Positions 31,009 through 61,690 of a DNA stretch of 64,000 bases are shown piece after piece. Location of the stretch: contig NZ_WLZY01000002.1 in assembly GCF_010122465.1 (NCBI RefSeq), positions 199,076 to 263,075 of the forward strand. Direction: 5' to 3'. The notes beneath the pieces were generated by a model. The model saw only the letters and a program-made list of their open reading frames with translations. It searched no databases and was not told the DNA's origin. Positions within the stretch are counted from its first letter, which is position 1; each line of letters begins with the position of its first letter. The translations under genes were made by a program, and so were the position numbers. The stretch is from Phytoactinopolyspora mesophila. GTDB lineage: Bacteria; Actinomycetota; Actinomycetes; Jiangellales; Jiangellaceae.

Positions 31009-32421
31009 TGCCCGCGAAATCTGGTCGGTGCCTCAGTTAGGAATGCCCGCGAAAAAAGGGGGGTCAGCTGGCGGCCTTGATTCGGATGCCTTTGTGGACG
31101 TTGGGTAGGGCGGTGGGGAAGCTGGCGAGGTCGAGCTGTTCGGTCTTCTCCTTGGCCAGTACCAGTAGCCGGTTCTGTAGGTCGGCGATCTGGCGGGCGA
31201 TGGCGGCTGGGTTGAGACTGTCGCGGTAGGCGATCAACTCGGCCTGTTGAGTCGGGGCGAGGACATTCGCTGCGAGCAGGCGGTCCAGCGGCGTGGCCGG
31301 CGTGTCGTAGAGGCGCGTGCGGCGGCCTGCGGCGTCGGCGCCGAACCCGACCGGTTTCTTGGTCGGCGTCAGGTAGTTCAACCGGTCGTTGGTCAGCTGC
31401 CAGAGCCGGTTGAGCACGACGCGTTCGGCTTCGGTGTCGTAGCGGTAGTAGAAGCTGTACTTGCGGACCAGGTGGTTGTTCTTCGACTCCACGGTTGCTT
31501 GATCGTTCTTCTTGTACGGCCGGGACCGGGTGAAGAAGATCTCCCGGTCAGCGGCCCACTTGATCACAGCCTTGTTCAAGAACTCCGAACCATTGTCAAA
31601 GTCCAGCCTGACCACCTCGAACGGGACCTTCTCGGTGGCAGCCTTAAGCGCGGCGAGGATGTGAGTGTGGGCGTTGTTGCGCACGGTGCGGGTGAACACC
31701 CAGCCGGTATGCACGCAGGTGAGGTTGACCGTGCGGGCGAACTCGCCCTTCAACGTCGGCCCGCAATGCGCGACGGTATCGCCTTCGAAGAACCCAGGCT
31801 CGGCCTCGACCTCATCCCCTGCCTTGCGGATCTTGATCGACGAGCGCAGCAACGGCGACGGTTTCGTCGTCGCCACACCCTTGATCTGATCGCTGGCCTT
31901 GGCCGGCTTCAGATACCGATCGATCGTCGCCGCGCTCATCGCGAGCAACTCTTCTCGCACCACCGGGGTAAAGCGGGCCTTGCCGTCGATGACCCTGCCA
32001 TCGAACAGCTCGCCGTGGCGCTGCAGCGGTGTCGAGCAGGACCCGCATCGACGCCGCCAGATACTTCCCACACTGCCCGCCTGAGGCCGCCCAGACCCAC
32101 TGCAGGACCTTGATCGCGTCGTAGGAATACTTCGGCGAACGCGGCTTGCGTGGCCGCACCGCGACACTCTGACCGGAGCCAGGCTTGGCCTTCGCGGCCG
32201 CGGTCAGTCGACGCCGGGCGTTATCCCGCGACCACCCAGTCACGCCCACCACCTGGTCCAGGACCTGGCCCTTGTCCATCTTCGACGCCTTCGCATACGC
32301 CCTCGCGTACCTGCTAGTGACCTCGGCACGAGACGTCATCGACAACCCACTCCTCATGCCCCGACAGCATCACCGTTACGCGGGCATTCCCACCTGAGGC
32401 ACGGAGAGCATTTCGCGGGCA
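31009..32421 (-). mobile_element. Insertion sequence with 43-bp inverted ends
   Basis: The left end (31009-31051) starts TGCCCGCGAAAT, contains GTGCCTCAG and finishes GGAATGCCCGCG. The right end (32379-32421) read in reverse gives the same three blocks at the same spacing, with differences only between them. Each end thus holds two TGCCCGCG copies. The element is about 1.4 kb with one transposase on the minus strand. No target-site duplication is obvious by eye. Confidence 0.85.
31064..32342 (-). pseudogene. DDE/rve transposase, frameshifted
   Basis: The N-terminal part starts near 32342-32357 (MTSRAEVTSRYARAYAKASK, then a GVTGWSRDNARRRLT HTH) and reads to KYLAASMRVLLDT near 32040; the rest continues in another frame (LQRHGELFDGRVIDG onwards) to 31064. 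Joining the frames gives one protein of about 425 residues. The catalytic rve core is intact downstream: Asp in FFEGDTVAHCG, Asp in RLDFDNGSEFLNK and Glu in NDQATVESKNNHLVRKY. Either a point deletion inactivated the gene or programmed frameshifting is used; I see no classic slippery run at the join. Confidence 0.75.
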
Positions 32422-34571: not shown

Positions 34572-35828
34572 ATGCGACGGCGAGTAGTGATCACCGGTAT
34601 CGGGGTCATAGCACCGGGTGGTCCGAGTACGAAGGAGTTCTGGGAATTGCTCAGTGCGGGCAGAACGGCAACCAGAACGATCACCTTTTTCGACCCGGCG
34701 CCGTTCCGCTCTCGCGTCGCGGCCGAGGCCGACTTCGACCCGGAAATGAGTGGCCTCGGCCCACAGGAGATCCGGCGTATGGACCGGGCCGCGCAGTTCG
34801 CGGTGGTCACCGGTAACCAAGCGATAGCGGACGCGGGCCTCCAGGTGAGCGGCATGAACCCGTACCGCACCGGTGTGACGGTGGGCACCGCGGTGGGCGC
34901 CACGATGGGCCTGGACCGGGAGTATCGCGTGGTCAGCAATGGCGGGCGTCTGGACGCCGTCGATCATGCCTACGCCGTGCCACACCTGTACGGCTATTTC
35001 GTCCCCAGCTCTTTCGCGGCCGAGGTGGCGCACTCGGTGCGGGCCGAAGGTCCGGTCGGCGTGGTGTCCACCGGGTGCACGTCCGGGTTGGATGCTGTGG
35101 CGCACGCGGTTGAGCAGATCCGAGAGGGTGAGGCCGACGTGATGGTGGCAGGAGCCACCGACGCACCGATCTCGCCGATCACCGTGGCCTGTTTCGACGC
35201 GATCAAGGCGACCACGGCGCGCAACGACGATCCAGAGCATGCGTCGAGGCCGTTTGACCGCACTCGCGACGGGTTCGTGCTGGGAGAAGGCGCGGCGATG
35301 TTCGTCCTCGAAGAATACGAGGGCGCCCGCGCTCGTGGAGCCAAGATGTACGCGGAGATCACCGGATATGCCAACCGTTGTAACGCCTTTCACATGACCG
35401 GCCTGCGTCCTGACGGGCGAGAGATGGCAGAGGCGATCCGCCTGGCCTTGGCTGAGGCCGGGCTCGCTCCCGTTGATATCGACTACATCAACGCGCATGG
35501 TTCGGGTACCAAACAGAACGACCGGCACGAGACGGCAGCGTTCAAACGGAGTTTGGGAAAACACGCCTACCGGGTGCCTGTCAGCTCGATCAAGTCGATG
35601 ATCGGACACTCACTCGGCGCCATCGGATCGCTGGAGATCGCCGCTTCCGCGCTGGCCATCGAACACAACATGGTTCCACCGACGGCCAATTTGAATGAGG
35701 CGGATCCTGAATGCGACCTGGACTACGTGCCGCATGAGGCCAGAGCGTGGCCGACGGACGCGGTGCTGACCGTCGGGAGCGGTTTCGGCGGTTTCCAGAG
35801 CGCGATGGTGCTGCGGAGGGCCACATGA
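34572..35828 (+). CDS. Type II PKS ketosynthase alpha (KS-alpha)
   Basis: 418 residues. The active-site Cys169 is in [12 protein letters not shown], the family His residues in [15 protein letters not shown] and [15 protein letters not shown]. It performs decarboxylative Claisen condensations of malonyl-ACP as a heterodimer with the chain-length factor encoded next, which overlaps by ATGA. AAGGAG precedes the start. Full length and no missing residues. Confidence 0.97.
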
Positions 35829-37078
35829 GCGCGCCGGTCGTGGTCACCGGCATGGGGGTTGTGGCGCCGACGGGTCTCGGTGCGGCTGAGCACTGGGCCG
35901 CCACTCGTGCCGGAACCACCCGCATCCGGCAAGTCCAGCGTTTCGATCCAGAGGGTTACCCGTCCCGACTAGCCGGGGAGGTGAGCTCCTTCGTTGCGGA
36001 GGAGCACATACCGAGCCGGTTGATCCCTCAGACGGATCACATGACCCGGATGGCACTGACCGCGGCGGATTGGGCACTCGACGACGCCGGGGTAAGTCCG
36101 GAGGAGTGGCCCGAGTTCGACATCGGCGTGGTCACCGCCAGTTCGTCGGGCGGCTTCGAATTCGGCCAGGGAGAGCTGCGGAACCTGTGGCGCAGAGGTG
36201 GCGCGTTCGTCAGCGCCTACCAGTCCTTTGCCTGGTTCTACGCGGTGAATACCGGACAGATCTCGATCCGGCACGGCCTGCGTGGACCCAGCGGCGTGCT
36301 CGTCGCCGACCAGGCAGGAGGGCTGGATGCGATCGCTCAAGCCCGTCGGCTGGTGCGTCGCGGGTGCCGGATCAGCATCGCCGGTGGCGTGGACGGCTCG
36401 ATCTGCCCGTGGGGATGGGTGGCTCAACTGGCTGGGGGCCGGATGAGCACTGTCGCCGACCCGGCGCAGGCCTATCGGCCCTTCGCTGCCGACGCGTCGG
36501 GCCACGTGCCCGGCGAGGGAGGGGCGCTGCTGGTCGTGGAGGATGCCGAATCAGCTCGGCGCCGCCAGGTCCCGGTTTATGGAGAGATCGCGGGGTATGC
36601 CGCGACGTTCGACTCGCCCGCGCACAGCGGTCACGAACCCGGGTTGCGGCGGGCGATTGAGCAGGCCTTGGAGAACGCCGGCGAAGCTCCACACGCCGTC
36701 GACGTCGTGTTCGCAGACGCGGCCGCGGTCCCGGACCTGGACAGGGCGGAAGCCAACGCGATCAGGAAGGTCTTCGGCGCGCGAGGTGTGCCGGTCACCG
36801 CGCCGAAGACCATGACCGGCCGGCTGCTTTCTGGCGCCGGGTCGCTCGACGTGGCCACTGCGCTGCTGGCTATCAGGGACCAGGTGGTGCCGCCGACGGT
36901 GAATACCGTGCCGCGGCCCGAGCACCAACTCGATCTCATACTCGGTGCCTCGAGGGAGATGCCCGTCAGCACGGCGCTCGTGCTGGCCCGGGGATATGGC
37001 GGATTCAACAGCGCAATGGTTGTGCGGAGGGCCGGGTGGGCCGGACCACCGGAGGAGAGCGAGAGGAGCGAACGATGA
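35825..37078 (+). CDS. Type II PKS chain-length factor (KS-beta/CLF)
   Basis: 417 residues, homologous to KS-alpha, but the active-site Cys is replaced by Gln163 in [13 protein letters not shown], the diagnostic CLF change. The second His block is altered ([16 protein letters not shown]). It partners KS-alpha and sets chain length, which is decaketide in known angucyclines. Four-base overlaps with both KS-alpha and the ACP. Confidence 0.97.
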
Positions 37079-37360: not shown

Positions 37361-38146
37361 ATGCCAGCCACAACACCGCGGACCGCCCTGGTCACCGGTG
37401 CCACCAGTGGCATCGGACTGGCCGTGGCTGAGACCCTGGCCGCCGAAGGACACAGGGTCGTCATCTGCGCGCGCACCGCGTCGGCCGTGGAACTCACCGT
37501 GAAGCGACTACGGGACGACGATCTGGAGGTCTTCGGCACGACGGGCGACGTCGCCGATGCCGCCGATGTCCGCCGGATCGTGCAGGCGGCGGCGGACCAG
37601 GCCGGCCCCATCGACATCCTCGTCAACAATGCCGGGCGTAGCGGCGGCGGCGTGACGGCCGACATTGACGACGAACTCTGGTTCGACGTCATCGACACTA
37701 ATCTCAACAGCGTCTTTCGTATGACCAGAGAAGTTCTGAATACCGGCGGCATGCGGCATCTCGGCTGGGGCCGGATCGTGAACATTGCCTCAACCGCAGG
37801 CAAGCAAGGTGTTGTGCTCGGTGCCCCGTACTCGGCGTCGAAACACGGCGTCGTCGGATTCACCAAAGCCCTCGGAAACGAGCTGGCTCCGACCGGGATC
37901 ACGGTAAACGCGGTCTGCCCCGGGTACGTGGAGACACCGATGGCGCAGCGGGTCCGGCAAGGTTACGCGCGCGTCTGGGACACCTCGGAGGACGAGGTGC
38001 TGACCAAGTTCCAAGCAAAGATCCCGCTGGGCCGGTACACGGTCCCCGCCGAGGTTGCGGGTCTCGTCGGCTATCTGGTCACCGACAGTGCCGCGCCGGT
38101 CACCGCGCAGGCGATCAACGTCTGTGGCGGCCTGGGCAACTTCTGA
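37361..38146 (+). CDS. Polyketide C9 ketoreductase (ActIII-type SDR)
   Basis: 261 residues. The NADPH loop is TGATSGIGLAVAETLA near residue 12. The catalytic residues Tyr157 and Lys161 (APYSASKHGVVGF) fall at the same numbers as in ActIII KR, and the family substrate-binding PGYVETPMAQRVR segment is present. It reduces the C9 carbonyl of the nascent chain with NADPH. GGGAGGA precedes the start; it lies 13 bp after the ACP gene. Confidence 0.95.
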   Translation: MPATTPRTALVTGATSGIGLAVAETLAAEGHRVVICARTASAVELTVKRLRDDDLEVFGTTGDVADAADVRRIVQAAADQAGPIDILVNNAGRSGGGVTADIDDELWFDVIDTNLNSVFRMTREVLNTGGMRHLGWGRIVNIASTAGKQGVVLGAPYSASKHGVVGFTKALGNELAPTGITVNAVCPGYVETPMAQRVRQGYARVWDTSEDEVLTKFQAKIPLGRYTVPAEVAGLVGYLVTDSAAPVTAQAINVCGGLGNF

Positions 38147-38157
38147 AGGAGGCATAC

Positions 38158-39105
38158 ATGAACTCGCCGGACCGTCGTGAGGTCGAGCACGAGATCACCG
38201 TGGCTGCGCCGGCTGCCGCGGTCTATGGGGTCATCGCGGATGTCCGGCATTGGCCGGAGATGTTTCCGCCGACAGTCCACGCAGAATATGTGGAACGCAA
38301 CGGACGCGAAGAGCGGATACGCATCTGGGCCACTGCCAACGGGGAAGCGAAGAGCTGGACGTCGCGACGCATGCTTGACGGCGAACAGTTCCGGATCGAC
38401 TTCCGGCAGGAGGTGTCCACTGCGCCGGTGGCCGAGATGGGCGGAACCTGGCTGGTGGAGCCGTTGTCTCCGCGGGAGTCAAGGGTCCGTCTGCTGCATT
38501 ACTTCCGCGCGGTCGATGACGATCCGGCCAGCCTGAGCTGGATCGACCGGGCGGTGGACACCAACAGCCACGCCGAGCTGGCCGCGTTGAAGAACAGTGT
38601 CGAACTCGCGGCCGACGACCAGGGCGGATGCAAGCTGTCCTTCGAGGACACGATCCGGGCTGAAGCTACCGCGAAAGACATGTACGACTTCATCAACGAG
38701 GCACAACTGTGGGACGAGCGGTTGCCCCACGTGTCCTGGGTCTCCCTTTCCGAGTCGGCTCCTGGTCTGCAGACGCTGACGATGGATACACGCACCAAGG
38801 ACGGCGACACGCACCGCACGGAGTCGGTGCGGGTGTGCCTTCCGAATCACACCATCGTCTACAAGCAGATCACGCTCCCGGCCCTGCTCGCGCTGCACAC
38901 CGGAAGCTGGCGCTTCGTCGAGACGGAGTCCGGGGTGATCGCGACCTCGCGGCACACCGTTGTGATCGATCCGGAGAAGGTGACCGACGTGCTGGGCGCC
39001 GACGCCGACGTGGCGAAAGCACGGGAATTCATTCGCAACGCACTCGGCGCCAATAGCCGGGCGACTCTCGGCCACGCCCGGGAGTATGCCGAGAGCCGAC
39101 GGTAG
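38158..39105 (+). CDS. Didomain polyketide aromatase/cyclase
   Basis: 315 residues made of two SRPBCC (START-like) domains of about 150 residues each: the first begins VEHEITVAAPAAAVYGVIAD, the second FEDTIRAEATAKDMYDFINE. This is the ActVII/UrdL/JadD-type enzyme that aromatises the first ring of C9-reduced chains. AAGGAGG precedes the ATG. It is 11 bp after the ketoreductase and two bases before the oxygenase, clearly one operon. Confidence 0.94.
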   Translation: MNSPDRREVEHEITVAAPAAAVYGVIADVRHWPEMFPPTVHAEYVERNGREERIRIWATANGEAKSWTSRRMLDGEQFRIDFRQEVSTAPVAEMGGTWLVEPLSPRESRVRLLHYFRAVDDDPASLSWIDRAVDTNSHAELAALKNSVELAADDQGGCKLSFEDTIRAEATAKDMYDFINEAQLWDERLPHVSWVSLSESAPGLQTLTMDTRTKDGDTHRTESVRVCLPNHTIVYKQITLPALLALHTGSWRFVETESGVIATSRHTVVIDPEKVTDVLGADADVAKAREFIRNALGANSRATLGHAREYAESRR

Positions 39106-39107
39106 CC

Positions 39108-40607
39108 ATGGACGCCGACGTCATCGTTGTCGGCGCCGGGCCCGTCGGCTTGCTGCTCGCCGGTGAGTTACGCCTCGGCGGCGCCGAGGTGACGGTCGTG
39201 GAGCGGCTGACCACACCGATGACCGAGTCCCGCGCGTCCACACTGCACGCCCGGAGCATGGAGATCCTGGAGCAGCGCGGACTATTCGACGGGCTGGAAA
39301 CCCCGCCGAACCTGCCGGCCGGTCATTTCGGCGGGATCCGGCTAGACCTGAGTCAGCAGCCGAGCCGATTTCCCGGGCAGTGGAAACTCGCCCAGGCCGA
39401 CCTCGAGCGCCTGCTCGCGGACTGGGCCCGGGGAATGGGCACACGAATACTGCGCGGCTACGACGTACGCACGGTCACGAGCAGCGAGGACGCCGTCGAG
39501 ATCGGTGTTCACACTGCACGGGGACCGAAGCGGCTTCGTGCGGCACACGTCGTCGGTTGTGACGGTGACCAAAGCTCTGTTCGGCGGTTGGCGTCGTTCG
39601 ACTTCCCGGGCTTGCCGGCAACCCGCGAGTTGTTCCGTTGCGACCTGACCGGCGTCGACATTCCGGACCGGCGGTTCGAACGGTTCGAGGACGGCCTGGC
39701 GATCGCAGCCACTCGGGATGGCGTGACCCGGGTGATGGTTCACGAGTTCGGCCGCTGGCCGGTGCGGCGGACCTCGGCTCCAGAGTTCACCGAGGTCGCT
39801 TCCGCATGGAAACGGGTCACCGGTGAGGACATCACCGGCGGCGCCGCGACTTGGGTCGACGCTTTCGACAACGCCAGCCGGCAGGTGTCGCGGTATCAGC
39901 AGGGACGGATGCTTCTGGCCGGTGACGCCGCTCATCGGCAGATGCCGGTCGGCGGGATGCCGCTCAACGTGGGACTGCAGGATGCGATGAATCTGGGGTG
40001 GAAGCTGGCCGCCGTCGTTCAGGGCTGGGCTCCGGTCGGGCTTCTCGGAACGTACGACGCCGAACGTCGCCCGGCCGGCCGGCAGGCATTGCACATGATC
40101 GATGCCCAGGCACACCTTCTACTCGGTGGTCCCGAGGTCGACGCGGTACGTGCGGTGCTGACCCGGTTGATCGAGTTGCCCGCTGTCCGCGACGAACTCG
40201 CCGCGATGGTCGGTGGGCTGGACGTGCGATACGAGCAGGGCGATCGTCTCGACGGAGCTCGGTTGCCATACGCCGTTCTGGAGACGGCTTCCCGGTCGAC
40301 CACTACGACGGAGTTACTGCGAGCAGGCAGGGGGGTGCTGCTCGACCTCTCCGGGGACCAAACCCGAGGCGATGGGCTGGAGCAGCTGATACAGGACGTG
40401 CCGGGTGCGGTGAAGACGGAACGGGCGACGGTTCCCGACGGCTCGCCGCTGGCCGGGATCGACACCATTCTGGTGCGTCCGGACGGCCATGTGGCCTGGA
40501 CCGGTGATTGTGACAGCGACCCGACGGCGGCCCTGTGCCGCTGGTTCGGTGCGGTGAAGGAGGGCAGGTACTCGCCGGCTCGATCGGGGTCGGCGCATGA
40601 CACGTGA
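39108..40607 (+). CDS. FAD-dependent aromatic polyketide hydroxylase (PgaE/UrdE/JadH-like)
   Basis: 499 residues of the class A flavoprotein hydroxylase family. FAD motifs are VIVVGAGPVGLLLAGELRLG at the N-terminus, the D-G motif AAHVVGCDGDQSSVRRLA, and GDAAHRQMPVGGMPLNVGL near residue 270; a C-terminal thioredoxin-like domain follows. In angucycline pathways the homologue hydroxylates C12/C12b of the tetracycle with NADPH and O2. Two TTA codons are in frame (codons 21 and 403). Confidence 0.92.
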   Translation: MDADVIVVGAGPVGLLLAGELRLGGAEVTVVERLTTPMTESRASTLHARSMEILEQRGLFDGLETPPNLPAGHFGGIRLDLSQQPSRFPGQWKLAQADLERLLADWARGMGTRILRGYDVRTVTSSEDAVEIGVHTARGPKRLRAAHVVGCDGDQSSVRRLASFDFPGLPATRELFRCDLTGVDIPDRRFERFEDGLAIAATRDGVTRVMVHEFGRWPVRRTSAPEFTEVASAWKRVTGEDITGGAATWVDAFDNASRQVSRYQQGRMLLAGDAAHRQMPVGGMPLNVGLQDAMNLGWKLAAVVQGWAPVGLLGTYDAERRPAGRQALHMIDAQAHLLLGGPEVDAVRAVLTRLIELPAVRDELAAMVGGLDVRYEQGDRLDGARLPYAVLETASRSTTTTELLRAGRGVLLDLSGDQTRGDGLEQLIQDVPGAVKTERATVPDGSPLAGIDTILVRPDGHVAWTGDCDSDPTAALCRWFGAVKEGRYSPARSGSAHDT

Positions 40608-40645: not shown

Positions 40646-42340
40646 ATGGCTACTAAGGTCCGTTCGATTGAGAAAGCTGGAGAGACCGGCAACGTCCGCC
40701 AGTGTGATGTGATGATTCTGGGATCCGGGCTGGCGGGCTCCATCAGTGCGATGTGCCTGGCCAGTCAGGGGTTCAAAGTCGCCCTGGTGGACGCCGGGCA
40801 ACATCCGCGCTTCGCCATCGGTGAGTCGATGACGCCACAGCTGATCGAGTGGTTGCAGATCCTCCGGGCGCGGTTCGACGTGCCCGAACTGGAGCACCTG
40901 TTCGACATCAAGGCGACGACGAAACACATCGGCCCGCACCACGGCAAGAAGCAGAGTTTCGGATTCATCCGCCAGGTTCCCGGCAAGGAGCCGGACCCGC
41001 GCGAGGCGACCATGTTCGTCATACCCAAGGTGCTGACCGAAGCGAGTCACCTGTTCCGGCAGGAGACCGATCAGTACTACTTCCACGTAGCGGCGAAGTA
41101 CGGATGCATCACCCGGCAGAACTGGCGGGCTACCGATCTTGATTTCGACGACGACGGTGTGACCGTCACCGGGCACAACGGTGAGGTCTTCCGGGCGCGG
41201 TATCTGATCGATGCCAGCGGGTTCCGTTCGCCGCTGGCCGAGAAGTTCGGTCTGCGCGAGGAGCCGGCCAGGTTCAAGCATCATTCGCGGTCGTTGTTCA
41301 CGCATTACGTGGGGGTCAAACCGTTCGACGATGTGTGTCATCACCCTCGCAGCCTGCGTCCGCCGGCGCCGTGGAACGGCGGGACGCTGCATCACATGAT
41401 CGACCGGGGCTGGTTCTGGATCATTCCGTTCAACAACACAAAGGAGTCCACGAACCCGGTCTGCAGTGTCGGTCTGACCTTCGATCCGCGCAAGTATCCG
41501 AAACCGGACAACATGACACCGGAGGAGGAGTTCCACCACTACCTGGACATGTATCCGTCGGTGAAGCGACAGTTCGTGGGTGCCCGCCGGGTCCGGGAGT
41601 GGGTCTCCACCGATCGGCTGCAGTACTCGTCGTCGCGGTCCATCGGGTACCGCTGGTGCCTGATGTCCCATGCGGCGGGATTCCTCGATCCGTTGTTCTC
41701 GCGTGGGCTGTCGAACACCTTCGAGGTCATGTACGCACTGCTCTCCCGCCTGGTCAAAGCACTGGACGACGACGACTTCTCGGTGGATCGATTCGAGTAC
41801 GTGGACACGGTCGAACGTGGACTGCTGCAGTACAACGACGACCTGGTGAACAGTTCCTTCATCGCCTTCAACCACTTCCGGCTGTGGAACGCGGTGTTCC
41901 GGGTGTGGGCGGCGTTCCTGACACCAGGGGTGATGCGCCTGACTCGTGCCCGGCTGGACTACGCCCTGGATCAGGACGAGCGGCATTTCGAGGCGCTGGA
42001 GAACACCGCGTATCCCGGGCTGTGGTGGCCGGAGAGTTCGGAATTCAAGAACATTCTGGAGATCACCGCGGAGACATGTGAGAAGTACGAGGTGGGTGAA
42101 CTCGACGGCGACGCGGCCGCCGACATCATCTTCAAGATGCTCAACGAGTGCGATCTGGTCAATCCGGTCTTCGGTTGGAAAGACCCGGAAGACACCCGTT
42201 TCGTGCTTCCGACCACCGCGATGATGGCCAAGTTCATGTACTGGGCCAACCGCAAGGCGCCGGCGGAAATGCAGCAACTCGGCCGGGCCTTCGTCGGCGG
42301 TCTCGTCAGATCGGGTGTCCGCGGCAAGAAGGTTCTGTAG
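40646..42340 (+). CDS. Flavin-dependent halogenase
   Basis: 564 residues. Motifs: the GxGxxG FAD site in VMILGSGLAGSISAMCLAS, the IGESMTPQLIEWLQ block, and the halogenase signature WxWxIP seen as GWFWIIPFNNT near residue 255. A long C-terminal helical region follows. Length and motifs fit halogenases acting on phenolic rings, such as the tetracycline chlorinase type. It needs FADH2, which the flavin reductase at 56373-56972 could supply. Chloride or bromide use cannot be decided from sequence. Confidence 0.9.
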   Translation: MATKVRSIEKAGETGNVRQCDVMILGSGLAGSISAMCLASQGFKVALVDAGQHPRFAIGESMTPQLIEWLQILRARFDVPELEHLFDIKATTKHIGPHHGKKQSFGFIRQVPGKEPDPREATMFVIPKVLTEASHLFRQETDQYYFHVAAKYGCITRQNWRATDLDFDDDGVTVTGHNGEVFRARYLIDASGFRSPLAEKFGLREEPARFKHHSRSLFTHYVGVKPFDDVCHHPRSLRPPAPWNGGTLHHMIDRGWFWIIPFNNTKESTNPVCSVGLTFDPRKYPKPDNMTPEEEFHHYLDMYPSVKRQFVGARRVREWVSTDRLQYSSSRSIGYRWCLMSHAAGFLDPLFSRGLSNTFEVMYALLSRLVKALDDDDFSVDRFEYVDTVERGLLQYNDDLVNSSFIAFNHFRLWNAVFRVWAAFLTPGVMRLTRARLDYALDQDERHFEALENTAYPGLWWPESSEFKNILEITAETCEKYEVGELDGDAAADIIFKMLNECDLVNPVFGWKDPEDTRFVLPTTAMMAKFMYWANRKAPAEMQQLGRAFVGGLVRSGVRGKKVL

Positions 42341-42414: not shown

Positions 42415-43218
42415 ATGGCGAAGACAGCCACGCAGACCACCAAGAAGAAGGCCGAATCGGCGCCCGCGCCCGAACCGGAATCCTCGATGCCGCAGGAGCG
42501 CCCGGCGGATCCCGAACCGTCCGTAGCGTCGCAGCCTGCCACGTCCGAGGCTCCCATGCCGGAGCAGGAACCCGTAGCGATGGAGGCATCGGGAGCCGCC
42601 ATGGTGCCTGCATCGATGCAGGCGCCGGCACCGGCCATGGAGGAAACCCAGGCGTTGAGCTCGTGGGCCACGACCAGGCCGGAGCTGAACGCCGGCAGGC
42701 TCATGCGGGCGTTCGTCCGCATCAACGTCTACTTCTATTCGAAGCCACCGTCGAAGCTCAGCAAGACGATCAACAAGCTGGGAATCAAGCTCAACGTCTT
42801 TCTCTATCAGCGTTCGCAGGGGCGGATCATGGGGCGCTTCGGAGATCTGGAGGCGTTGCTCATCACCACCACCGGCCGTAAGAGCGGGCAGCCGCGAACG
42901 GTGCCTCTTGGATACCTGTACGACCAGGGCCGGTTCATTGTCATCGCTGTGCCCGGGCATTTCGACATTCCCGGAGGCCCGAAGGCACTCGATCCGGCCT
43001 GGTATCTGAACCTGCAGGCGCATCCGCAGGCCAAGATAAACATCGGTCGGGAAATCATCGACGTCACCGCCACGACGGCCACAGGCGCCGAGCACGACAA
43101 ATACTGGAATCAGTTCACCACGGCCTACCCGTTCATCAGCGAGTTCTTCAAGCGAGCCAATCGGCCGCCGCCGGTGGTCGTCCTCACCCCGAACGACCTG
43201 CACCCTGACTCGCTGTGA
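42415..43218 (+). CDS. DDN/DUF385 deazaflavin (F420)-fold protein with disordered N-terminus
   Basis: 267 residues. The first 80 or so are low-complexity, rich in Ala, Pro, Glu and Met (APAPEPESSMPQERPADPEP), likely unstructured. The C-terminal 150 residues form a split-barrel of the nitroreductase/DUF385 type: LEALLITTTGRKSGQPRTVP and PAWYLNLQAHPQAKINIGRE, with NQFTTAYPFISEFFK near the end. Such proteins bind F420H2 in mycobacteria (Ddn). A reductive tailoring step is plausible. GAAAGGA precedes the ATG; it ends the first long operon. Confidence 0.82.
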   Translation: MAKTATQTTKKKAESAPAPEPESSMPQERPADPEPSVASQPATSEAPMPEQEPVAMEASGAAMVPASMQAPAPAMEETQALSSWATTRPELNAGRLMRAFVRINVYFYSKPPSKLSKTINKLGIKLNVFLYQRSQGRIMGRFGDLEALLITTTGRKSGQPRTVPLGYLYDQGRFIVIAVPGHFDIPGGPKALDPAWYLNLQAHPQAKINIGREIIDVTATTATGAEHDKYWNQFTTAYPFISEFFKRANRPPPVVVLTPNDLHPDSL

Positions 43219-43318: not shown

Positions 43319-44074
43319 ATGAAGACATTCGAAGGAAAGACCGCACTGGTGACCGGCTCCAGTCGGGGGATCGGTCGCAGCGTAGCGCTGCGACTCGGGC
43401 AGGAAGGCGCACGAGTCGCCGTGCACTACCGCAGCAACGAGGCCGCGGCCAAAGAGGTAGTGGCGGCGATCGACGCAGCAGGCGGCAGCGCCTTCACCAT
43501 CCAGGCCGAGCTCGGCGTGCCGGGTGACGCCGAGGCCCTGTTCGACCAGTTCGACCGAATCGCGGACGGGCTGGACATCCTCGTGAACAATGTCGGCGCC
43601 GAACCGGCCGAGATAGGCATCGGTGAGACCACCGAGGGGGGCTTCGACGCCGTCTTCGCTGTCAACGTCAAGGCACCGTTCTTCGTCACCAAGCAGGCCA
43701 TGTCCCGGCTGCGCGATGGTGGCCGGATCGTCAATATCTCCTCAGGCATCAGCCGGAGCGCGTCATCCCAACCTGAATACGTCACGTACGCGATGGCGAA
43801 GAGCGGGCTGGACACACTTACGGCTGCGCTGGCCAAGCAGCTCGGCCCACGTGGCATTACGGTCAACACGGTGGCTCCGGGGCTGGTGGAGACCGAGCCG
43901 ACTGCGGCGAAGCTGTTCAGTGAAGAGGCACGGCAGTTCGCCGCATCGCTGGCCTGCCTGGGCCGGCTCGGTCAGCCCGAGGACATCGCCGCCGTAGTGG
44001 CCTTCTTGGCGTCGGCGGACGGTGGCTGGGTGACCGGCCAGTGGCTGGACGCTTCTGGAGGAATGCTCCTCTAG
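43319..44074 (+). CDS. SDR family oxidoreductase (FabG-like)
   Basis: 251 residues. The NADP site is TGSSRGIGRSVALRLGQEGA, NNVGAEPAE is the NNAG-like motif, and the catalytic Tyr and Lys are in PEYVTYAMAKSGLDT. It is a classical SDR. GGAGG precedes the start. In angucycline clusters a second reductase often acts on the C6 position (UrdM/LanV type); that role is possible here but not shown. Confidence 0.88.
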   Translation: MKTFEGKTALVTGSSRGIGRSVALRLGQEGARVAVHYRSNEAAAKEVVAAIDAAGGSAFTIQAELGVPGDAEALFDQFDRIADGLDILVNNVGAEPAEIGIGETTEGGFDAVFAVNVKAPFFVTKQAMSRLRDGGRIVNISSGISRSASSQPEYVTYAMAKSGLDTLTAALAKQLGPRGITVNTVAPGLVETEPTAAKLFSEEARQFAASLACLGRLGQPEDIAAVVAFLASADGGWVTGQWLDASGGMLL

Positions 44075-44286
44075 CCCGCCTGCCGCATGCCGAAGCTATG
44101 TGGTGTGGGTCACATCAACCTCATGGCTGTCACGATCCGCCGATCATCAGCTCTCTTACGGGCAGACACCAATGATCGCGCGACAGCGGCGCAGAGACCG
44201 GAGCACGAAGTCGGTGTGGCGCCGGGTGGCCGGTTCGGCGGATCAAGCTGTGACCCACGGCGCGGTTCGTGGGGAGAGGAGTAACT

Positions 44287-45984
44287 GTGCTGAAAACGTG
44301 GCGCGGCAATCCATGGGCGATCATCGTCGTCCTCTGCCTTGGCTACTTCGCCACCCTGATGGACCTGACGATCGTCAACATCGCGGTCCCTCAGATGACC
44401 GACGACCTCAACGCCTCTCTGGACCAGATCCTTTGGGTGTTCAACTCCTACGCGCTGGGACTGGCCGTCCTGCTGATCACCGCGGGACGGCTGGGTGACC
44501 TGCTCGGCAAGAAGAACGTGTTCATCGCCGGTGTGGTGGTATTCACGCTGGCGAGTCTCGCCTGCGGTCTGGCCCAGGATCCCGCGCAGCTGATCGCCTT
44601 CCGCGCGGTGCAAGGGGTGGGCGGTGCGCTACTGGTACCCCAGACACTGTCCATCATCGCCGACGTATTCCCCGCCTCGAAACGCGGCGCGGCACTGGGT
44701 ATATGGGGTGCCGTCGCAGGCCTGTCGGCGATCGCCGGTCCGGTGGTGGGCGGCGCTCTGGTCACCTCATTCGACTGGAGATGGATCTTCCTGATCAACG
44801 TGCCTATAGGGGTCGCGGTGGTGGCGCTGGCAGGGCCGGTGATTCCCAGATCGATCCGCCAGGCCGGGCACAAGCTGGACATCACCGGTGTGCTGATCGT
44901 TTCGATGTCGCTGTTCTGCTTGGCCTTCGGGCTGATCCAAGGGGAACGGTACGGCTGGAACGCCTGGGTTTGGGGGCTACTCGCGCTGAGCGTCGTGCTT
45001 TTCCTGGCGTTTGTGGCGCAACAGAGCCGGGTCCAGGACGACGACCCACTCGTGCCGTTCTCGCTGTTCAAGGACCGGGCGTTCTCGATCGTCAACGCGA
45101 TATCGATCGTGGTGTCGTTCGGGGCCATAGGACTGTTCCTGCCGATGACGGTCTACCTGCAGTCGGTCCTCGGGTTCAGCGCTGTCAAGACCGGCGGAGT
45201 GCTCTTGCCGATGGCGATCGGCGGACTGATCGTCGCCGTCCCAGCCGGGGTGTTGTCCGAGCGGTACGGCGGCAAGTACGTCCTGATAGCCGGGCTGTCG
45301 ACCTTCGGTATCGGCTTGGCTTGGTTGGTGGCTGTCGCGCAGACGGATTCGACTTGGACGGCGTTCATCGCGCCGTTCTTCGTCGTCGGGCTCGGTTCGG
45401 GGTGCAGTTTCACACCGATGGCATCGGAGGTCATGCGTAAGGTACCGGCGCATCTCAACGGGGCCGCCTCAGGCGTGAATAACGCGATGCGGCACGTCGG
45501 CGCCGTACTGGCTGGAGCCGTGATCGGCGCGGTCCTGCAGAACCGGCTCGCTGCGTCGCTGACCAGTCAGGCCAATGAGCACGCGGCAGCGCTGCCGGAA
45601 GAGTACCGGGAAGGTTTCATCGCGGGGTTCGCCGAATCCGGCGCCGAAGGCCTCAACGTGGGCGCGAGTGGTGCCAGCAGTGTCGGCGTGCCCGAGGGGA
45701 TGCCGGATGCCGTCGCCGCGGAGATTCAGGCCGTCGCCGGTCAGGTCTTCGCCGAAGGGTACGTTGCGGCGCTGACGCCGACGCTGCTCGTAGCCGTCGC
45801 CGCGCTGGCCGCCGGTGTGCTGGGGTGCTTCGCGCTCAAGGCCTACACCGGCCCGGTGGCGAATCCCTACGGGCTGCCCGTGGTCGATGACGCCGAGCCG
45901 GGTTCCGCTGAACATGAGCTGGAGGAGACGGCTGAGCCGGCGCCAACGGTCTCCACGGCTGACAACACCGGCTCAGGACACTAG
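44287..45984 (+). CDS. MFS exporter, DHA2 (EmrB/QacA) family
   Basis: 565 residues, 14 predicted spans. DHA2 hallmarks are FATLMDLTIVNIAVPQMTDD, the LGDLLGKKNVF motif A and IAGPVVGGALVTSFDWRWIF motif C. The start is GTG 44287, with GGAGAGGAG upstream. A region of about 100 residues between the last two spans is extracytoplasmic and Ala/Gly-rich. It probably exports the final polyketide and gives self-resistance. A strong hairpin follows the stop. Confidence 0.92.
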   Translation: MLKTWRGNPWAIIVVLCLGYFATLMDLTIVNIAVPQMTDDLNASLDQILWVFNSYALGLAVLLITAGRLGDLLGKKNVFIAGVVVFTLASLACGLAQDPAQLIAFRAVQGVGGALLVPQTLSIIADVFPASKRGAALGIWGAVAGLSAIAGPVVGGALVTSFDWRWIFLINVPIGVAVVALAGPVIPRSIRQAGHKLDITGVLIVSMSLFCLAFGLIQGERYGWNAWVWGLLALSVVLFLAFVAQQSRVQDDDPLVPFSLFKDRAFSIVNAISIVVSFGAIGLFLPMTVYLQSVLGFSAVKTGGVLLPMAIGGLIVAVPAGVLSERYGGKYVLIAGLSTFGIGLAWLVAVAQTDSTWTAFIAPFFVVGLGSGCSFTPMASEVMRKVPAHLNGAASGVNNAMRHVGAVLAGAVIGAVLQNRLAASLTSQANEHAAALPEEYREGFIAGFAESGAEGLNVGASGASSVGVPEGMPDAVAAEIQAVAGQVFAEGYVAALTPTLLVAVAALAAGVLGCFALKAYTGPVANPYGLPVVDDAEPGSAEHELEETAEPAPTVSTADNTGSGH

Positions 45985-46474: not shown

Positions 46475-46840
46475 ATGAAAATCGACGAAATGGACCCGTC
46501 GGTCCCGATGATCAGTCAGCTTCAGCAGGAAACCGGTCCGGTGACACTGATCAATACCGTATTCGTCCCGCGCGAGAATCGAGACGAATTCCTGGAGCTG
46601 TGGCGCGATGACGCGTCGTTCATGAAAGCGCAGCCGGGCTTCATCTCCACCCAGCTGCACCAGGGGACAGCCGACAGCCAGATGATGGTCAATGTCGCCG
46701 TCTGGGAGTCGACGGAGTCGCTGTTCCGGGCCTTCTCCAACCCCGAGTTTCAGCAGAAGAGCGCGAAGTATCCGGACGGGATAATCGCCTACCCACACGT
46801 ATACGAGAAAGTCGCAGTCGACGGCGTGTGTACCGCCTAG
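46475..46840 (+). CDS. ABM-type small oxygenase, paralogue 1
   Basis: 121 residues with the antibiotic biosynthesis monooxygenase fold: TGPVTLINTVFVPRENRDEF, then DDASFMKAQPGFISTQLHQG and VNVAVWESTESLFRAFSNPE. The cluster's other copy (58898-59266) shares the FMKAQPG, VWEST and YPH-(V/L)-(Y/F)-EKVAV blocks. Relatives in aromatic polyketide clusters act as cofactor-free or flavin-coupled oxygenases on anthrone- or quinol-type rings. Quinone formation or ring opening is possible here. GAAGGGAAT precedes the ATG. Confidence 0.85.
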   Translation: MKIDEMDPSVPMISQLQQETGPVTLINTVFVPRENRDEFLELWRDDASFMKAQPGFISTQLHQGTADSQMMVNVAVWESTESLFRAFSNPEFQQKSAKYPDGIIAYPHVYEKVAVDGVCTA

Positions 46841-47177: not shown

Positions 47178-48353
47178 ATGAGCAGCGTATCCAACCGCCC
47201 GAACCAACTACGGTCATTAACCGGCTACCGCTTCCTGCTGGCATCGGCTGTCGTTTTCGGTCATGTCATCTTCATGTCAGGCATCTTCACGTTCGACCAT
47301 CCGGTGATGGAGGCGAACCGGCTGTCCATCATGCTTGCTGCCGGGGCCGTCTCATCGTTCTTCATTCTCAGCGGTTTCGTCCTCACGTGGTCTAGACGCG
47401 ACAGTGACACAACACGTGGGTTCTACCGGCGACGGATCGTCAAAATCTTTCCGAACCACGTCGTCACTCTTGGCTTGATGCTGATCTTGTTATGGGTGAC
47501 GACCGCTCCCTCTCCATTGCCGGTGCAGGAACCGACACTGGGGGAAGGTGTGGCGAATCTCCTGCTCGTCCATACCTGGTACCCGGACCTCGGTTACGTC
47601 AGCGGAGGCACGAGTGTGACCTGGTCGCTCGCGTCCGAGATGTTCTTCTACCTGCTCTTTCCGCTGATCATCGGACCGTTGTGCGCCATCCGGGCGAGGA
47701 ACCTGTGGGCTGTGACTCTGGGAGTCGCAGCGCTGGTGGTCTCCGTTCCCGCACTGGCCACCTTCGTCACCTCCAATGAGGCCGACCCGATGCTGTTCGG
47801 GATGTCGATGTCGGTCGAATACTGGTGGCTGATCTACTTCTTCCCGCCGGTGCGGCTCCTGGAATTCGTTCTCGGCATCCTGCTGGCACGTGTGGTGCTC
47901 ACGGGCCAATGGCCGACGTCGCAGCTGCTCTGGCCGGTCCTGGGCCTCGTCGCAGTGCTCGCCGCCGAGCCCGTCATGCCGGACGGGTATCTGTGGGGAG
48001 CGGCGACCTGCCTGCCCGCCGCCGCAATGATCTGCACACTGGCTATGCGTGATCTGGACGGGCAGGGGACGCCGCTCGCCCGGCCACCGATGGTCCGGTT
48101 CGGAGAGGCGTCCTACGCCCTGTATGTGGTGCATATGCCGGTCATCTATGCGATCCGGCACCTGGCCGGACCGGAGGAGATTGTCGGTTCGTTCGAGGCG
48201 GTCTTGCTCGCCGTGGCCATGTTCGTGGCGTCGGTACTGGCAGCGCTCGTCCTCTGGCGCACCGTCGAAGTGCCGATGATGCGCCGCTTCGCGCGGCCGC
48301 GCACCCCCGAGCATCCCGAGCCCGTCGCCACCTTGCCGGTGCCGCCGCGCTGA
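47178..48353 (+). CDS. Membrane O-acyltransferase (acyltransferase 3 family)
   Basis: 391 residues, about ten spans. It begins with the family pattern QLRSLTGYRFLLASAVVFGH, whose His is the usual catalytic residue, and continues with FFILSGFVLTWSRR and a FYRRRIVKIFPNHVVTLGLM arginine motif, as in OafA/MdmB proteins that acylate sugars or macrolides. It sits ahead of the deoxysugar genes, so acylation of the sugar or aglycone is a reasonable guess. It has two in-frame TTA codons (14 and 105). The ribosome site is weak. Confidence 0.87.
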   Translation: MSSVSNRPNQLRSLTGYRFLLASAVVFGHVIFMSGIFTFDHPVMEANRLSIMLAAGAVSSFFILSGFVLTWSRRDSDTTRGFYRRRIVKIFPNHVVTLGLMLILLWVTTAPSPLPVQEPTLGEGVANLLLVHTWYPDLGYVSGGTSVTWSLASEMFFYLLFPLIIGPLCAIRARNLWAVTLGVAALVVSVPALATFVTSNEADPMLFGMSMSVEYWWLIYFFPPVRLLEFVLGILLARVVLTGQWPTSQLLWPVLGLVAVLAAEPVMPDGYLWGAATCLPAAAMICTLAMRDLDGQGTPLARPPMVRFGEASYALYVVHMPVIYAIRHLAGPEEIVGSFEAVLLAVAMFVASVLAALVLWRTVEVPMMRRFARPRTPEHPEPVATLPVPPR

Positions 48354-48408: not shown

Positions 48409-49830
48409 ATGAGTATGCCCAGCACGGCGCTGCGGGTGGGCGAGCCGCTCGAGCTTGAGGACTTCGAACTCGCCCTGAGCCACGCCCGCAGCCACATCTA
48501 TACCCGCACCGAACAGGTAGCGCTGGCTGATCTGGACGGATGGTACCGGGATTCGTACACGGGGTACTGGCATCATCGCAGTGGCCGGTTCTTCTCGATC
48601 GAAGGGGTGCGTTTCCGCACGGACCGCGGCCCGATCAGCGAATGGTGCCAGCCGATCGTCAATCAACCCGAGACCGGGATCTTGGGGCTCCTGATCAGCC
48701 GGCGGGCCGGCGTTACCTACTGCCTGATGCAGCTGAAGGCGGAGCCGGGCAACCGGGGAGGAATCCAGCTCTCACCTACCGTGCAGGCCACCCGGAGCAA
48801 CTACACGGGAGTGCACGGGGGATCGGCCGTTCCCTACTTGGAACATTTCCGGGACGCACCAGCGGCCCGGGTGCTGGCCGATGTCCGGCAATCCGAGCAA
48901 GGTGCCTGGTTCCTGCGTAAACGGAACCGCAACATGATCGTCCTCGCGGACGATCTGGTTCCAGCTCAGGAGGGATTCGTATGGCTGAGCACCGGACAGT
49001 TGCTCCGGCTGCTCAGCCGGCCTGACCTGGTCAACATGGACACCCGCACAGTCCTGTCCTTGCTGCCCATGGCGGCAGCCGCTCTCCGGGAAGGTGCGGA
49101 CGGGCTGCGCGCGGCAGAAAGCACCATGGAGAACTGGGAGGAAGCACTCGCGGACGCTTGCGCCGGGGGTGCCAGCCGTCACTCCGACCGTGAACTGCGG
49201 CATTGGATCACCGACGTGCGTGCACGGACCGCCGCGGTGACGACTGCCGCGCCGATGCGTGCGCTGACCGGCTGGCGACACGGCGACGGCAGCATCCGGC
49301 ACGAAACCCGAGCATTCTTCGAGGTGATCGGTGTGCGAGTGGAGGCTGCTGGCCGGGAGGTGGGGCAGTGGTGCCAGCCGATGCTGGCCACGAGGGAAGA
49401 CGGCATCGTCGCATTCCTCGTCACCCGGATCGGCGGGGTTCCGCATGTCCTGCTCCAGCTGCGTACGGAGCCAGGCCTGACCGACGTCGCTGAACTGGCA
49501 CCCACAGTGCAGTGCACACCGGGCAACTACGAGTTTCTTCCATCGGCAGCCCGTCCGCCGTTCCTCGATGACGTGCTGAACGCTCCTTCAGGGGCGATCC
49601 GGTTCGATACGACGCTGTCGGACGAAGGCGGGCGGTTCTACCGGATCAGCAATCGCCACCTGATCGTCGAGACCGGGAATGCCGGTGAGTATCCGGGCTT
49701 CCGCTGGGCGTCGGTGCGTCAGCTGATCGGGCTGCTGCGGCACTCGAATTACCTCAATATCCAGACGCGCAGCCTGGTCGCCTGCCTCTACAGCCTGCTC
49801 GCCACGTCCGCCGAAGGGAGCCGGACATGA
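48409..49830 (+). CDS. NDP-hexose 2,3-dehydratase
   Basis: 473 residues. The protein is an internal duplication: ISEWCQPIVNQPETGILGLL near residue 80 is repeated as VGQWCQPMLATREDGIVAFL near 320, and each is followed by an L-x-PTVQ-(A/C)-T block. This matches OleV/UrdS/DnmT enzymes that remove the C2 hydroxyl of NDP-4-keto-6-deoxyglucose to give the 3,4-diketo intermediate. CAGGAGG precedes ATG 48409. It overlaps the 4-ketoreductase gene by ATGA. Confidence 0.93.
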   Translation: MSMPSTALRVGEPLELEDFELALSHARSHIYTRTEQVALADLDGWYRDSYTGYWHHRSGRFFSIEGVRFRTDRGPISEWCQPIVNQPETGILGLLISRRAGVTYCLMQLKAEPGNRGGIQLSPTVQATRSNYTGVHGGSAVPYLEHFRDAPAARVLADVRQSEQGAWFLRKRNRNMIVLADDLVPAQEGFVWLSTGQLLRLLSRPDLVNMDTRTVLSLLPMAAAALREGADGLRAAESTMENWEEALADACAGGASRHSDRELRHWITDVRARTAAVTTAAPMRALTGWRHGDGSIRHETRAFFEVIGVRVEAAGREVGQWCQPMLATREDGIVAFLVTRIGGVPHVLLQLRTEPGLTDVAELAPTVQCTPGNYEFLPSAARPPFLDDVLNAPSGAIRFDTTLSDEGGRFYRISNRHLIVETGNAGEYPGFRWASVRQLIGLLRHSNYLNIQTRSLVACLYSLLATSAEGSRT

Positions 49831-50849
49831 CCACATCAATCCCGCATCCGGGTGACGCGACGCGGCCACTGGTCACCGTGCTCGGGGCCACCGGATTCGT
49901 CGGCTCAGCCGTCATGGCCCGGCTGAGTCGGCGCGACTTTCGTCTCCGGGCCGTGGCACGTCGTCCTCTGGAGCCGCCTATCGCCGGGTCCGCTGAGCTG
50001 GAGACGATCTCGGTCGACATCACCGAGGCAGGAGCACTGGCCTCCGCCGTCGAAGGTTCCGATGTGATCGTCCACCTGCTGTTGTGCGAGGGAGGCTGGC
50101 GAGCCGCCGGTGAGCCCGGCGGAGAGCGCGTCAATGTCGGTGTGATGCGCGAGCTCGTCGACATCTGCCGCTCCAGCCAAGGACCTGCTCCCGTGGTCGT
50201 GTACGCGGGCGCGGCGTCTCAGGTAGGGGTACCGCCCCGGGAGCCGCTGGACGGCACCGAAGCAGACCGCCCGGCCACCGTCTACGACCAGCAGAAGGTC
50301 GTCGCCGAAAGGCTGCTTCTGGACGCCACCGAAGCCGGCTGGATGCGTGGTGTGAGCCTGCGTCTGCCCACGATTTTCGGTGCCTCTCCAGGCGCCGCCG
50401 ACCGCGGTGTCGTCGCGGCCATGGTGCGACGGGCGCACGCGGGGGAGGCGCTGACGATGTGGCACGACGGTTCCGTCCGCCGCGACCTGGTGGACGTCTC
50501 GGACATCGCGGTCGCCTTCGAGGCAGCCGTGGACCACGCCGACCGGCTAGCCGGAGCGTCGTGGCTGGTGGGTGCCGGCGACGGGGTCCCCCTCGGGGAG
50601 GTCTTCGGGATGATCGCCAGGGCCGTCTCAGAGCGGACGGGAAGCCCACCTGTCCCGGTGGTATCCGTGGAACCGCCAGAACACGCCCCAGAAACCGACT
50701 TCCGCAGCGTCACCATCGATGCGACGGCGTTCCGGGCGGTGACCGGCTGGCAGCCGCGGATGGCGCTACGAGACGGGATCGACCGGCTGGCCGCGGACGA
50801 AGTGCGCCACGCATGTCGTGGATACCACGCGAAAAGAGGAGCAGCGTGA
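49827..50849 (+). CDS. NDP-hexose 4-ketoreductase (NAD-dependent epimerase/dehydratase family)
   Basis: 340 residues, extended SDR. The nucleotide site is [40 protein letters not shown] carries the Tyr and Lys of the active site, followed by [16 protein letters not shown]. It resembles DnmV/UrdR-type enzymes that reduce the C4 keto group late in deoxysugar synthesis. Flanked with four-base overlaps by the 2,3-dehydratase and 3-aminotransferase genes. Confidence 0.88.
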
Positions 50850-51955
50850 CTACCTACGTATGGGACTATCTGCCGGAGTACGAGGCCGAACGTTCCGACA
50901 TCCTGGATGCCGTCGACCAGGTCTTCTCGTCCGGTCGGCTGGTGCTGGCCGAGAGCGTGCGCAGTTTCGAGAACGAGTTCGCGACCTACCACGGCGTCGA
51001 GCACTGTGTGGGCGTCGACAACGGCACCAACGCGATCAAGCTGGCCTTGCAGGCTTTGGGCATCGGTCCCGGAGACGAAGTCATCACCGTCTCCAACACG
51101 GCCGCACCCACAGTGGTGGCGATCGACGCGACCGGTGCCACGCCGGTCTTCGTCGATGTGCGCGACGAGGACTTCCTGATGGACGTCACGCAGATTGAGT
51201 CCGTGATCACCAGTCGGACCAGGTGCGTGCTGCCGGTTCACCTCTACGGTCAGTGCGTCGATCTCGAGCCGATCCGCGAACTGTGCGATCGCCGCGGACT
51301 CGTATTGCTCGAAGACTGCGCCCAGGCGCACGGCGCACGGCGCAACGGCCGGCTGGCTGGAACGCTGGGGGAAGCCGCGGCCTTCTCCTTCTATCCCACC
51401 AAGGTGCTCGGTGCCTACGGCGACGGCGGCGCCGTACTCGCGTCGAGTGAGGAAGCCGACGCCGCTCTTCGCCGGCTTCGGTTCTACGGCATGGAGAAGG
51501 TGTACTACACCGTACAGACGCCGGCACACAACAGCCGGCTGGACGAGGTGCAGGCTGAGATCCTGCGGCGTAAGCTCACTAGGCTCGACAGCTACATAGC
51601 CGGCCGCCGACAGGTTGCTCGTGCATACGCGGAAGCGCTGGCGGACACCGAACTGGTCCTTCCACGAACGGCGCCGGGCAACGACCACGTCTACTACGTG
51701 TACGTAGTGCGTCATCCACGCAGGGACGAGATCGTCGAGCGGCTCAAGGACTACGACATCCACGTCAACATCAGCTATCCGTGGCCGATCCACACCATGA
51801 CTGGATTCGCCCGGCTCGGATACGAGAAGGGTTCGCTGCCGGTGACTGAACGGTTGGCCGAGGAGATCTTCTCGTTGCCGATGTATCCCTCGCTACCCGC
51901 CGGGTTGCAAGACAAGATCATCACCGCCGTCCGCGAAGTCCTGGCCACACTCTGA
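50846..51955 (+). CDS. NDP-hexose 3-aminotransferase (DegT/DnrJ/EryC1/StrS family)
   Basis: 369 residues. PLP-enzyme motifs: [35 protein letters not shown] (PLP-ring Asp) and the Schiff-base Lys in [19 protein letters not shown]. The closest types are DnmJ/TylB/DesV-class enzymes that aminate the C3 keto sugar with glutamate. GTG 50846 overlaps the ketoreductase stop. It shows the sugar is a 3-amino sugar. Confidence 0.92.
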
Positions 51956-59266: not shown

Positions 59267-59393
59267 GGTTCTGAGATTCATTTCAGTATTCAGGAACCGA
59301 AGAGGGGGCCAACCGGCCCCGGCCGGTGCGCGCGTTCCCGGACGCCCGAGCATGGCGTCCGGGAACGACGCCGACGAGGGAGGGTTGTCACTG
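59266..59393 (+). promoter_or_regulatory. Structured leader of the carboxylase genes
   Basis: GGTTCTGA...TCAGGAACC at about 59266-59298 forms a weak hairpin, probably ending the ABM message. A perfect 13-bp stem, GTTCCCGGACGCC (59334-59346) with GGCGTCCGGGAAC (59354-59366), has no U-run and lies just before the AccDA ribosome site AGGGAGGG. Confidence 0.5.
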
Positions 59394-61665: not shown

Positions 61666-61690
61666 ACACGAAATAGGAGTAGGGGATCGC

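Follow-up and report, generated by a model that had tools for sequence, protein, structure and literature searches.

The window (the whole 64,000-nucleotide stretch of DNA that was analysed) carries a flavin-dependent halogenase gene within a cluster comprising type II polyketide synthase (PKS) and sugar genes (Table 1). We regard the halogenase ORF as a real, coding gene, because its third-position GC is 0.82 and it possesses nine orthologues in other actinomycetes (from its own genus, four further named genera and one MAG), with 67-90% identity over nearly full-length alignments. As originally predicted, it directly follows the PgaE-like oxygenase gene, from which it is separated by 38 bp, and its product matches the Pfam family Trp_halogenase (PF04820) with 62.9 bits (cut-off 21).

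Table 1. Genes of the halogenase cluster and motifs of the halogenase (positions are those of the window).
Feature	Position	Strand	Remarks
Polyketide cyclase PF04673	34156-34533	+	
Ketosynthase alpha	34572-35828	+	
Ketosynthase beta/chain length factor	35747-37078	+	true start probably further in
Acyl carrier protein PF00550	37075-37347	+	90 aa, DSL motif; between KS beta and ketoreductase
Ketoreductase (SDR)	37361-38146	+	
Two-domain aromatase/cyclase	38158-39105	+	
PgaE/CabE-like aromatic polyketide hydroxylase	39108-40607	+	CabE and PgaE are the best solved relatives
CtcP-type flavin-dependent halogenase	40646-42340	+	564 aa, ATG start
Halogenase motif GxGxxG (codons)	40721-40738		
Halogenase catalytic Lys102 (codon)	40949-40951		
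Halogenase motif WFWIIP (codons)	41411-41428		
F420H2-dependent reductase family protein (PF04075)	42415-43218	+	
SDR reductase	43319-44074	+	
DHA2-family MFS efflux protein	44269-45984	+	
ABM-type monooxygenase	46475-46840	+	
Membrane acyltransferase family 3	47178-48353	+	
NDP-hexose 2,3-dehydratase	48409-49830	+	
NAD-dependent epimerase/dehydratase family	49827-50849	+	presumed 4-ketoreductase
Sugar aminotransferase, DegT family	50813-51955	+	2oga transaminase among solved relatives
Sugar 3,5-epimerase	52018-52620	+	
Sugar nucleotidyltransferase	52605-53504	+	
NDP-glucose 4,6-dehydratase	53520-54521	+	
Glycosyltransferase	54601-55770	+	best solved relative SnogD
GNAT acetyltransferase	55831-56376	+	
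Flavin reductase PF01613	56373-56972	+	presumed FADH2 supplier for the halogenase
Sigma-70-type protein	57021-57965	-	weak SnoaL-like tail; homologues in many related clusters

The cluster contains a full angucycline-type set of genes, i.e., both ketosynthases (KS alpha and KS beta), the acyl carrier protein (ACP), the ketoreductase (KR), the two-domain aromatase/cyclase, the PF04673 cyclase, presumably of the JadI/UrdF type, and the PgaE-like oxygenase. Such PKS sets give angucyclines and, judging from the sequences of its genes, the cluster most likely makes an angucycline-type polyketide bearing an amino deoxysugar. An antiporter gene precedes the PF04673 cyclase in the cluster order, and the sigma-70-type protein is probably the cluster regulator. 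A second gene of the F420H2-dependent reductase family was noticed at 58096-58503; both it and the first one have homologues in many related clusters. The right end of the window (59352-63034) harbors carboxyltransferase and biotin carboxylase genes, also found in Phytoactinopolyspora limicola and Haloactinopolyspora alba, which presumably supply malonyl-CoA.

The original prediction had also stated that neither a carrier protein nor an amino-acid activating enzyme is encoded nearby. The first part did not hold, the PKS ACP being encoded 3.3 kb upstream of the halogenase, whereas the second part stood, in that a Pfam search of 46 proteins (two from the first 18 kb and, beyond 18 kb, the majority of the called genes) yielded no adenylation domain. 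In tetracycline clusters, an OxyD-like amidotransferase makes the malonamate starter; no amidotransferase family was found among the same 46 queries, which represent a part of the ORFs and were searched with models none of which is specific for OxyD.

Using a combination of sequence comparison, structure modelling and tree construction, we found that the ORF product is, by sequence and by model, a CtcP-type phenol halogenase, in line with the phenol-type activity initially assigned to it. First, the best solved structure for its sequence was CtcP, the tetracycline 7-halogenase (614 bits; E 3e-183), followed by PltM (304 bits), while every other match scored below 80 bits, with RadH, Mpy16, Bmp2, PltA, CmlS, CndH and FasV all under 70; in the aligned rows of the structure search, the identity was 49.6% over 530 positions with CtcP and 35.5% over 456 positions with PltM. 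Second, the structure model built with 44 sequences from the window and the fetched loci (mean pLDDT 90.0; an earlier model built with 10 close orthologues, mean pLDDT 48.9, was set aside) matched the CtcP structure with a Z-score of 52.6 and an rmsd of 1.3 over 527 residues, and PltM with a Z-score of 47.3, the remaining halogenases listed all being at 28.4 or below (28.4 for ChlB4, 28.1 for PltA, and 25.7-28.1 for the set of PltA, Mpy16, Bmp2 and CndH). Third, the model possesses two C-terminal helices (524-536 and 540-558) at the site of the CtcP hairpin, in an end of the protein where the model is weak (pLDDT 80 at 541-550, 63 at 551-560 and 50 at 561-564); the best alignments with CtcP extend to model residues 547-564, and those with PltM stop at 521-523. 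This hairpin was called unique to CtcP by its authors, PltM being devoid of it (PMC12400496). Fourth, the catalytic lysine is retained in the alignment, where Lys102 corresponds to Lys98 of CtcP and Lys87 of PltM and is present in 61 of the 64 family rows, and both halogenase motifs are intact (GSGLAG at 26 and WFWIIP at 256). Fifth, of the six residues named as forming the CtcP pocket (Ile59, Gln61, Phe101, Arg349, Ser421 and Trp456; PMC12400496), four are identical in the window enzyme (Gln65, Phe105, Arg353 and Trp460 for Gln61, Phe101, Arg349 and Trp456) and two differ (Thr63 for Ile59 and Leu425 for Ser421). Within the nearest clade, which has 16 rows, 14 keep the Thr63/Leu425 pair and two have Thr and Ala instead.

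Two other halogenase types were considered and rejected. In tryptophan halogenases the glutamate of the PLESTG motif is catalytic; that motif, present in the L077 protein, is replaced by DPLFSRGL in the window enzyme. Mpy16, Bmp2 and CndH use substrates attached to a carrier. PltA is likewise described as carrier-dependent (PMC12400496). A carrier-protein-dependent pyrrolyl or tyrosyl halogenase was rejected on the basis of the branch with 100/100 support that separates the window enzyme from CndH and Mpy16, and of the above-mentioned Z-scores (25.7-28.1 versus 52.6 for CtcP).

The quick tree, of 67 rows, places the window halogenase in a 30-row clade (SH-aLRT 99) and CtcP, together with three close relatives, in a separate one. 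In the careful tree, which was built from 34 rows without PltA and Bmp2, the window clade comprises 16 rows (support 100/99), and the 100/100 branch separates the side of CtcP and PltM (27 rows) from CmlS, CndH, 5buk (Mpy16), RadH and FasV. The halogenase thus stands on the CtcP side, apart from the pyrrolyl and tyrosyl carrier-protein halogenases, as the original prediction implied. Since long-branch warnings were obtained for both trees (in the careful one for PltM, RadH, Mpy16, 8zop and CmlS), we take from them no branching order for CtcP, PltM and the outer groups.

As a side observation, the catalytic lysine is lost in three CtcP-family proteins standing beside intact paralogues, namely those of L102 (~7 kb; Ala), L106 (~10 kb; Met) and L108 (~7 kb; Met). 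The WxWxIP motif is also missing in the L102 protein, as well as in those of L104 (~14 kb) and L112 (~10 kb), which have kept the lysine. Such motif-losing proteins may have taken on another role, or may serve as helper subunits in arrays of several halogenases.

A scan of genome contigs yielded 12 loci with halogenase relatives, the identities being 90% in P. limicola, 85% in H. alba and 82% in an Actinomadura; the other loci belong to streptomycete-family strains and MAGs. The halogenase occurs in four of the 22 genomes of the window's family, and in two of the five genomes of its genus, including the window's own. This patchy occurrence in the genus, together with an integrase core (rve) ORF noticed just left of the cluster (31067-32167, minus strand), hints at a gain by transfer. 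In another genus (g3), a CtcP-family match with an E-value no higher than 1e-60 was obtained for 52 of 343 genomes, 16 of which reach at least 60% identity, and a Trp_halogenase scan of 150 genomes of this genus at E 1e-15 found 63. With the cut-off set at 1e-30, the Trp_halogenase model gave 0 matches in 119 genomes of the phylum; this limit is so strict that it misses the window's own gene, and the zero carries no information on absence.

The 30-row clade corresponds to the window and 26 other clusters, for each of which 4 to 60 kb were read. KS alpha was found in 16 of these clusters and, for two more (L005 and L010), slightly beyond the limits of the stretch read, on what the coordinates indicate to be the same contig; in the other eight, no more than 14 kb separate the halogenase from a contig end, G475 having 4.4 kb of contig outside the stretch read. 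In 14 of the 26 clusters, the gene directly upstream of the halogenase, in the same orientation and at most 300 bp away, is PgaE-like, six of these oxygenases being a more distant paralogue (41-42% identity). For the other 12 clusters, the nearest matched upstream gene encodes an MFS protein (six cases), KS beta (three), a flavin reductase (one) or an acyltransferase (one), the last case being the contig edge in S. palmae, where the halogenase is preceded, at 71 bp, by a KS beta fragment. Three clusters (L005, L009 and L010) each possess two halogenases of the clade, which would fit a dichlorination. Each L009 copy pairs with an L010 copy, indicating a duplication older than the strains, and the position of one L005 copy in the clade is not resolved by the tree.

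The presumed partner of the halogenase had been placed 14 kb away, beside a GNAT gene, and this arrangement was verified: the flavin reductase gene starts 14,033 bp after the end of the halogenase gene, directly after the GNAT gene. The pairing of these distant genes is supported by the related clusters, 24 out of 26 of which contain a flavin reductase with an identity of 45% or more; of the two exceptions, one is a contig of 3.8 kb and the other is broken off 1.5 kb upstream of the halogenase. The two proteins would presumably work together. The best solved relative of the flavin reductase is the phenol 2-hydroxylase component B, and the label CtcQ is absent from all its 17 matches. In the stretches read, the GNAT gene was seen in only three of the 26 relatives, which also carry the DegT and glycosyltransferase genes; because of this restricted co-occurrence, GNAT probably acts on the amino sugar. 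The adjacency of the two genes can be explained in that GNAT goes with the amino sugar and the reductase with the halogenase.

From the family of the halogenase, its modelled fold, its catalytic residues and its genomic linkage to the PKS, oxygenase and reductase genes, we propose that it is probably a two-component FADH2-dependent phenol chlorinase acting on the angucycline-type aglycone, the sugar being added later; we infer chloride as the halide, the aglycone as the substrate, the order before glycosylation, and the ring and position attacked. The following observations bear on the substrate. First, DegT, glycosyltransferase and GNAT homologues with at least 40% identity occur in only three of the 26 related clusters (P. 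limicola, H. alba and the Actinomadura), and the 2,3-dehydratase occurs in these three and in G734, which also carries further sugar genes of lower identity. Second, PF03559 (NDP-hexose 2,3-dehydratase) is absent genome-wide from six of ten relatives (draft genomes), namely five Streptomyces and Actinacidiphila alni, the halogenases of which are 71-78% identical to the window enzyme; the substrate in these relatives would therefore be devoid of such a sugar. Third, the KR, aromatase/cyclase and PgaE-like genes stand beside the halogenase in three of these sugar-less relatives (L005, L009 and L010). L007 and L008 have only the PF04673 cyclase and both ketosynthases in the stretch read (G673, which groups with them, has the ACP, KR, aromatase/cyclase and oxygenase further off), and the halogenase of the sixth, S. 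palmae, lies on a 3.8 kb contig. As the sugar-less relatives keep the halogenase beside type II PKS genes, the clade is most simply understood as acting on the aglycone, rather than on a side group, as had been predicted; this comparison, the strongest evidence for the aglycone, is drawn from the relatives.

Following the flavin halogenase chemistry reported in the literature (FADH2, C4a-peroxide, HOCl, lysine and attack of the ring; PMC12400496, PMC9469721), the flavin reductase would make FADH2, which the halogenase would bind and react with O2 and chloride, generating a C4a-peroxide and then HOCl, which would pass from the flavin to Lys102. There, a phenol ring rich in electrons, with the FAD domain on one side and the C-terminal helices on the other, would undergo electrophilic chlorination. 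If the enzyme works like CtcP, this ring would most likely be ring D, the first to form, and the chlorine would enter at C-11, para to the phenol hydroxyl, or at C-9, ortho to it. The C-7 position of tetracycline is para to the phenol hydroxyl, and the rings D of tetracyclines and angucyclines derive from the same part of the chain, through related KR and aromatase/cyclase enzymes. CtcP is reported to chlorinate C-7 of tetracycline (PMC12400496). From this reported position and the shared origin of ring D, C-11 is our leading guess, to which we attribute somewhat less than an even chance, and C-9 comes second.

Alternatively, the enzyme might chlorinate an early intermediate, either ACP-bound or partly cyclised with the first ring alone aromatic, instead of the finished angucyclinone, in which case CtcP and the window enzyme would recognise a first-ring unit common to the tetracycline and angucycline pathways. 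The CtcP structure report (PMC12400496) states that tetracycline chlorination by CtcP was not seen, an earlier study having described a weak and incomplete activity, and that the pocket looked too small for tetracycline; its authors doubted a free, fully cyclised substrate and, from the small closed pocket, suggested an early or not fully cyclised intermediate. The identity of four of the six pocket residues in the window enzyme, the position of the halogenase directly after KS beta in three of the 26 clusters (a fourth being S. palmae, with its fragment 71 bp upstream) and the proximity of the PKS ACP, 3.3 kb upstream, point in the same direction. However, the carrier-dependent types compared stand behind the 100/100 branch (CndH and Mpy16) or at Z-scores of 25.7-28.1, PltM is reported to use free phloroglucinol (PMC12400496) and OrfA to chlorinate finished albofungin (PMC9469721). 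We regard it as unlikely that, in the tetracycline and angucycline pathways alike, the CtcP-type enzymes recognise one common early intermediate, at the first-ring stage, and not the finished four-ring product. If they did, chlorination would be fixed while cyclisation proceeds or immediately after it, at the position para to the phenol of ring D (C-7 in tetracyclines, C-11 in angucyclines), and the recurrent oxygenase-halogenase pair would act in sequence on that intermediate.

The halogenation of a side group, i.e., a sugar-linked aryl or acyl unit like the simocyclinone coumarin, could be invoked from the acyltransferase 3 gene and the sugar genes of the cluster, but we rejected it as highly improbable in view of the sugar-less relatives (PF03559 is absent from six of the ten halogenase-bearing draft genomes), the rarity of the sugar genes in related clusters (DegT, glycosyltransferase and GNAT homologues of at least 40% identity in three of 26) and the above-mentioned lack of an adenylation domain among the 46 Pfam queries. 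Still less credible is a protein that has lost its halogenase activity, to become a flavin hydroxylase or to decay, as happened to the lysine in three of 64 family relatives, since Lys102, GxGxxG and WFWIIP are intact in the window enzyme and its nine orthologues are conserved at 67-90% identity across the same genus, four other genera and a MAG.

Returning to the chlorination of the aglycone, the closest known system is CtcP/CtcQ of Kitasatospora aureofaciens, with which the window shares the fold, the catalytic lysine, four of the six pocket residues, the two C-terminal helices (in the model), a flavin reductase in the cluster and the type II PKS setting. It differs from it by the identity of 49.6%, the separate supported clade, the replacement of Ile59 and Ser421 by Thr and Leu, the angucycline-type cluster with an amino sugar and the lack of a direct link between the reductase and CtcQ in the 17 matches. 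The phloroglucinol halogenase PltM belongs to the same structural subgroup (Z-score 47.3) and has the catalytic lysine, whereas it is 35.5% identical, uses a monoaryl substrate and is reported to have no C-terminal hairpin (PMC12400496). OrfA is described as a two-component enzyme acting on a finished, free aromatic polyketide, albofungin (PMC9469721).

Chlorine on an angucycline-type framework from actinomycetes has been reported for allocyclinones and chlorocyclinones (PMC11766693, PMC6023020, PMC7765855), marmycin B (PMC6627970), and maduralactomycin A and actinospirol A (PMC10951976), and bromine for nocardiopsistin D (PMC11766693). The comparison with these cases is drawn on the compounds, and the window cluster differs in also encoding an amino deoxysugar. 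Because chlorinated angucyclines are already known, the window halogenase is a fresh example of an established enzyme type. Among the titles and abstract openings listed, from literature outside subscription, none described a CtcP-type halogenase of an angucycline cluster, and an earlier publication is possible. As for FasV (8zop), which we take to be the flavin-dependent halogenase of the aromatic polyketide fasamycin, it would resemble the window enzyme in this respect, but falls with CmlS, CndH, Mpy16 and RadH, and not with CtcP.

The window halogenase marks a CtcP-type clade that is separate from the CtcP branch and is linked to angucycline-type clusters of several actinomycete families. 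The conservation of this clade, the doubt on the true substrate of CtcP and the three two-copy clusters (L005, L009 and L010) give it added interest; since this sister clade has a similar pocket in a different pathway, it makes the question of the CtcP substrate testable. Our findings predict chlorinated, amino-glycosylated angucyclines in the window's strain, P. limicola, H. alba and the Actinomadura, and perhaps dichlorinated angucyclines in the three streptomycete-family strains that possess two copies of the halogenase.
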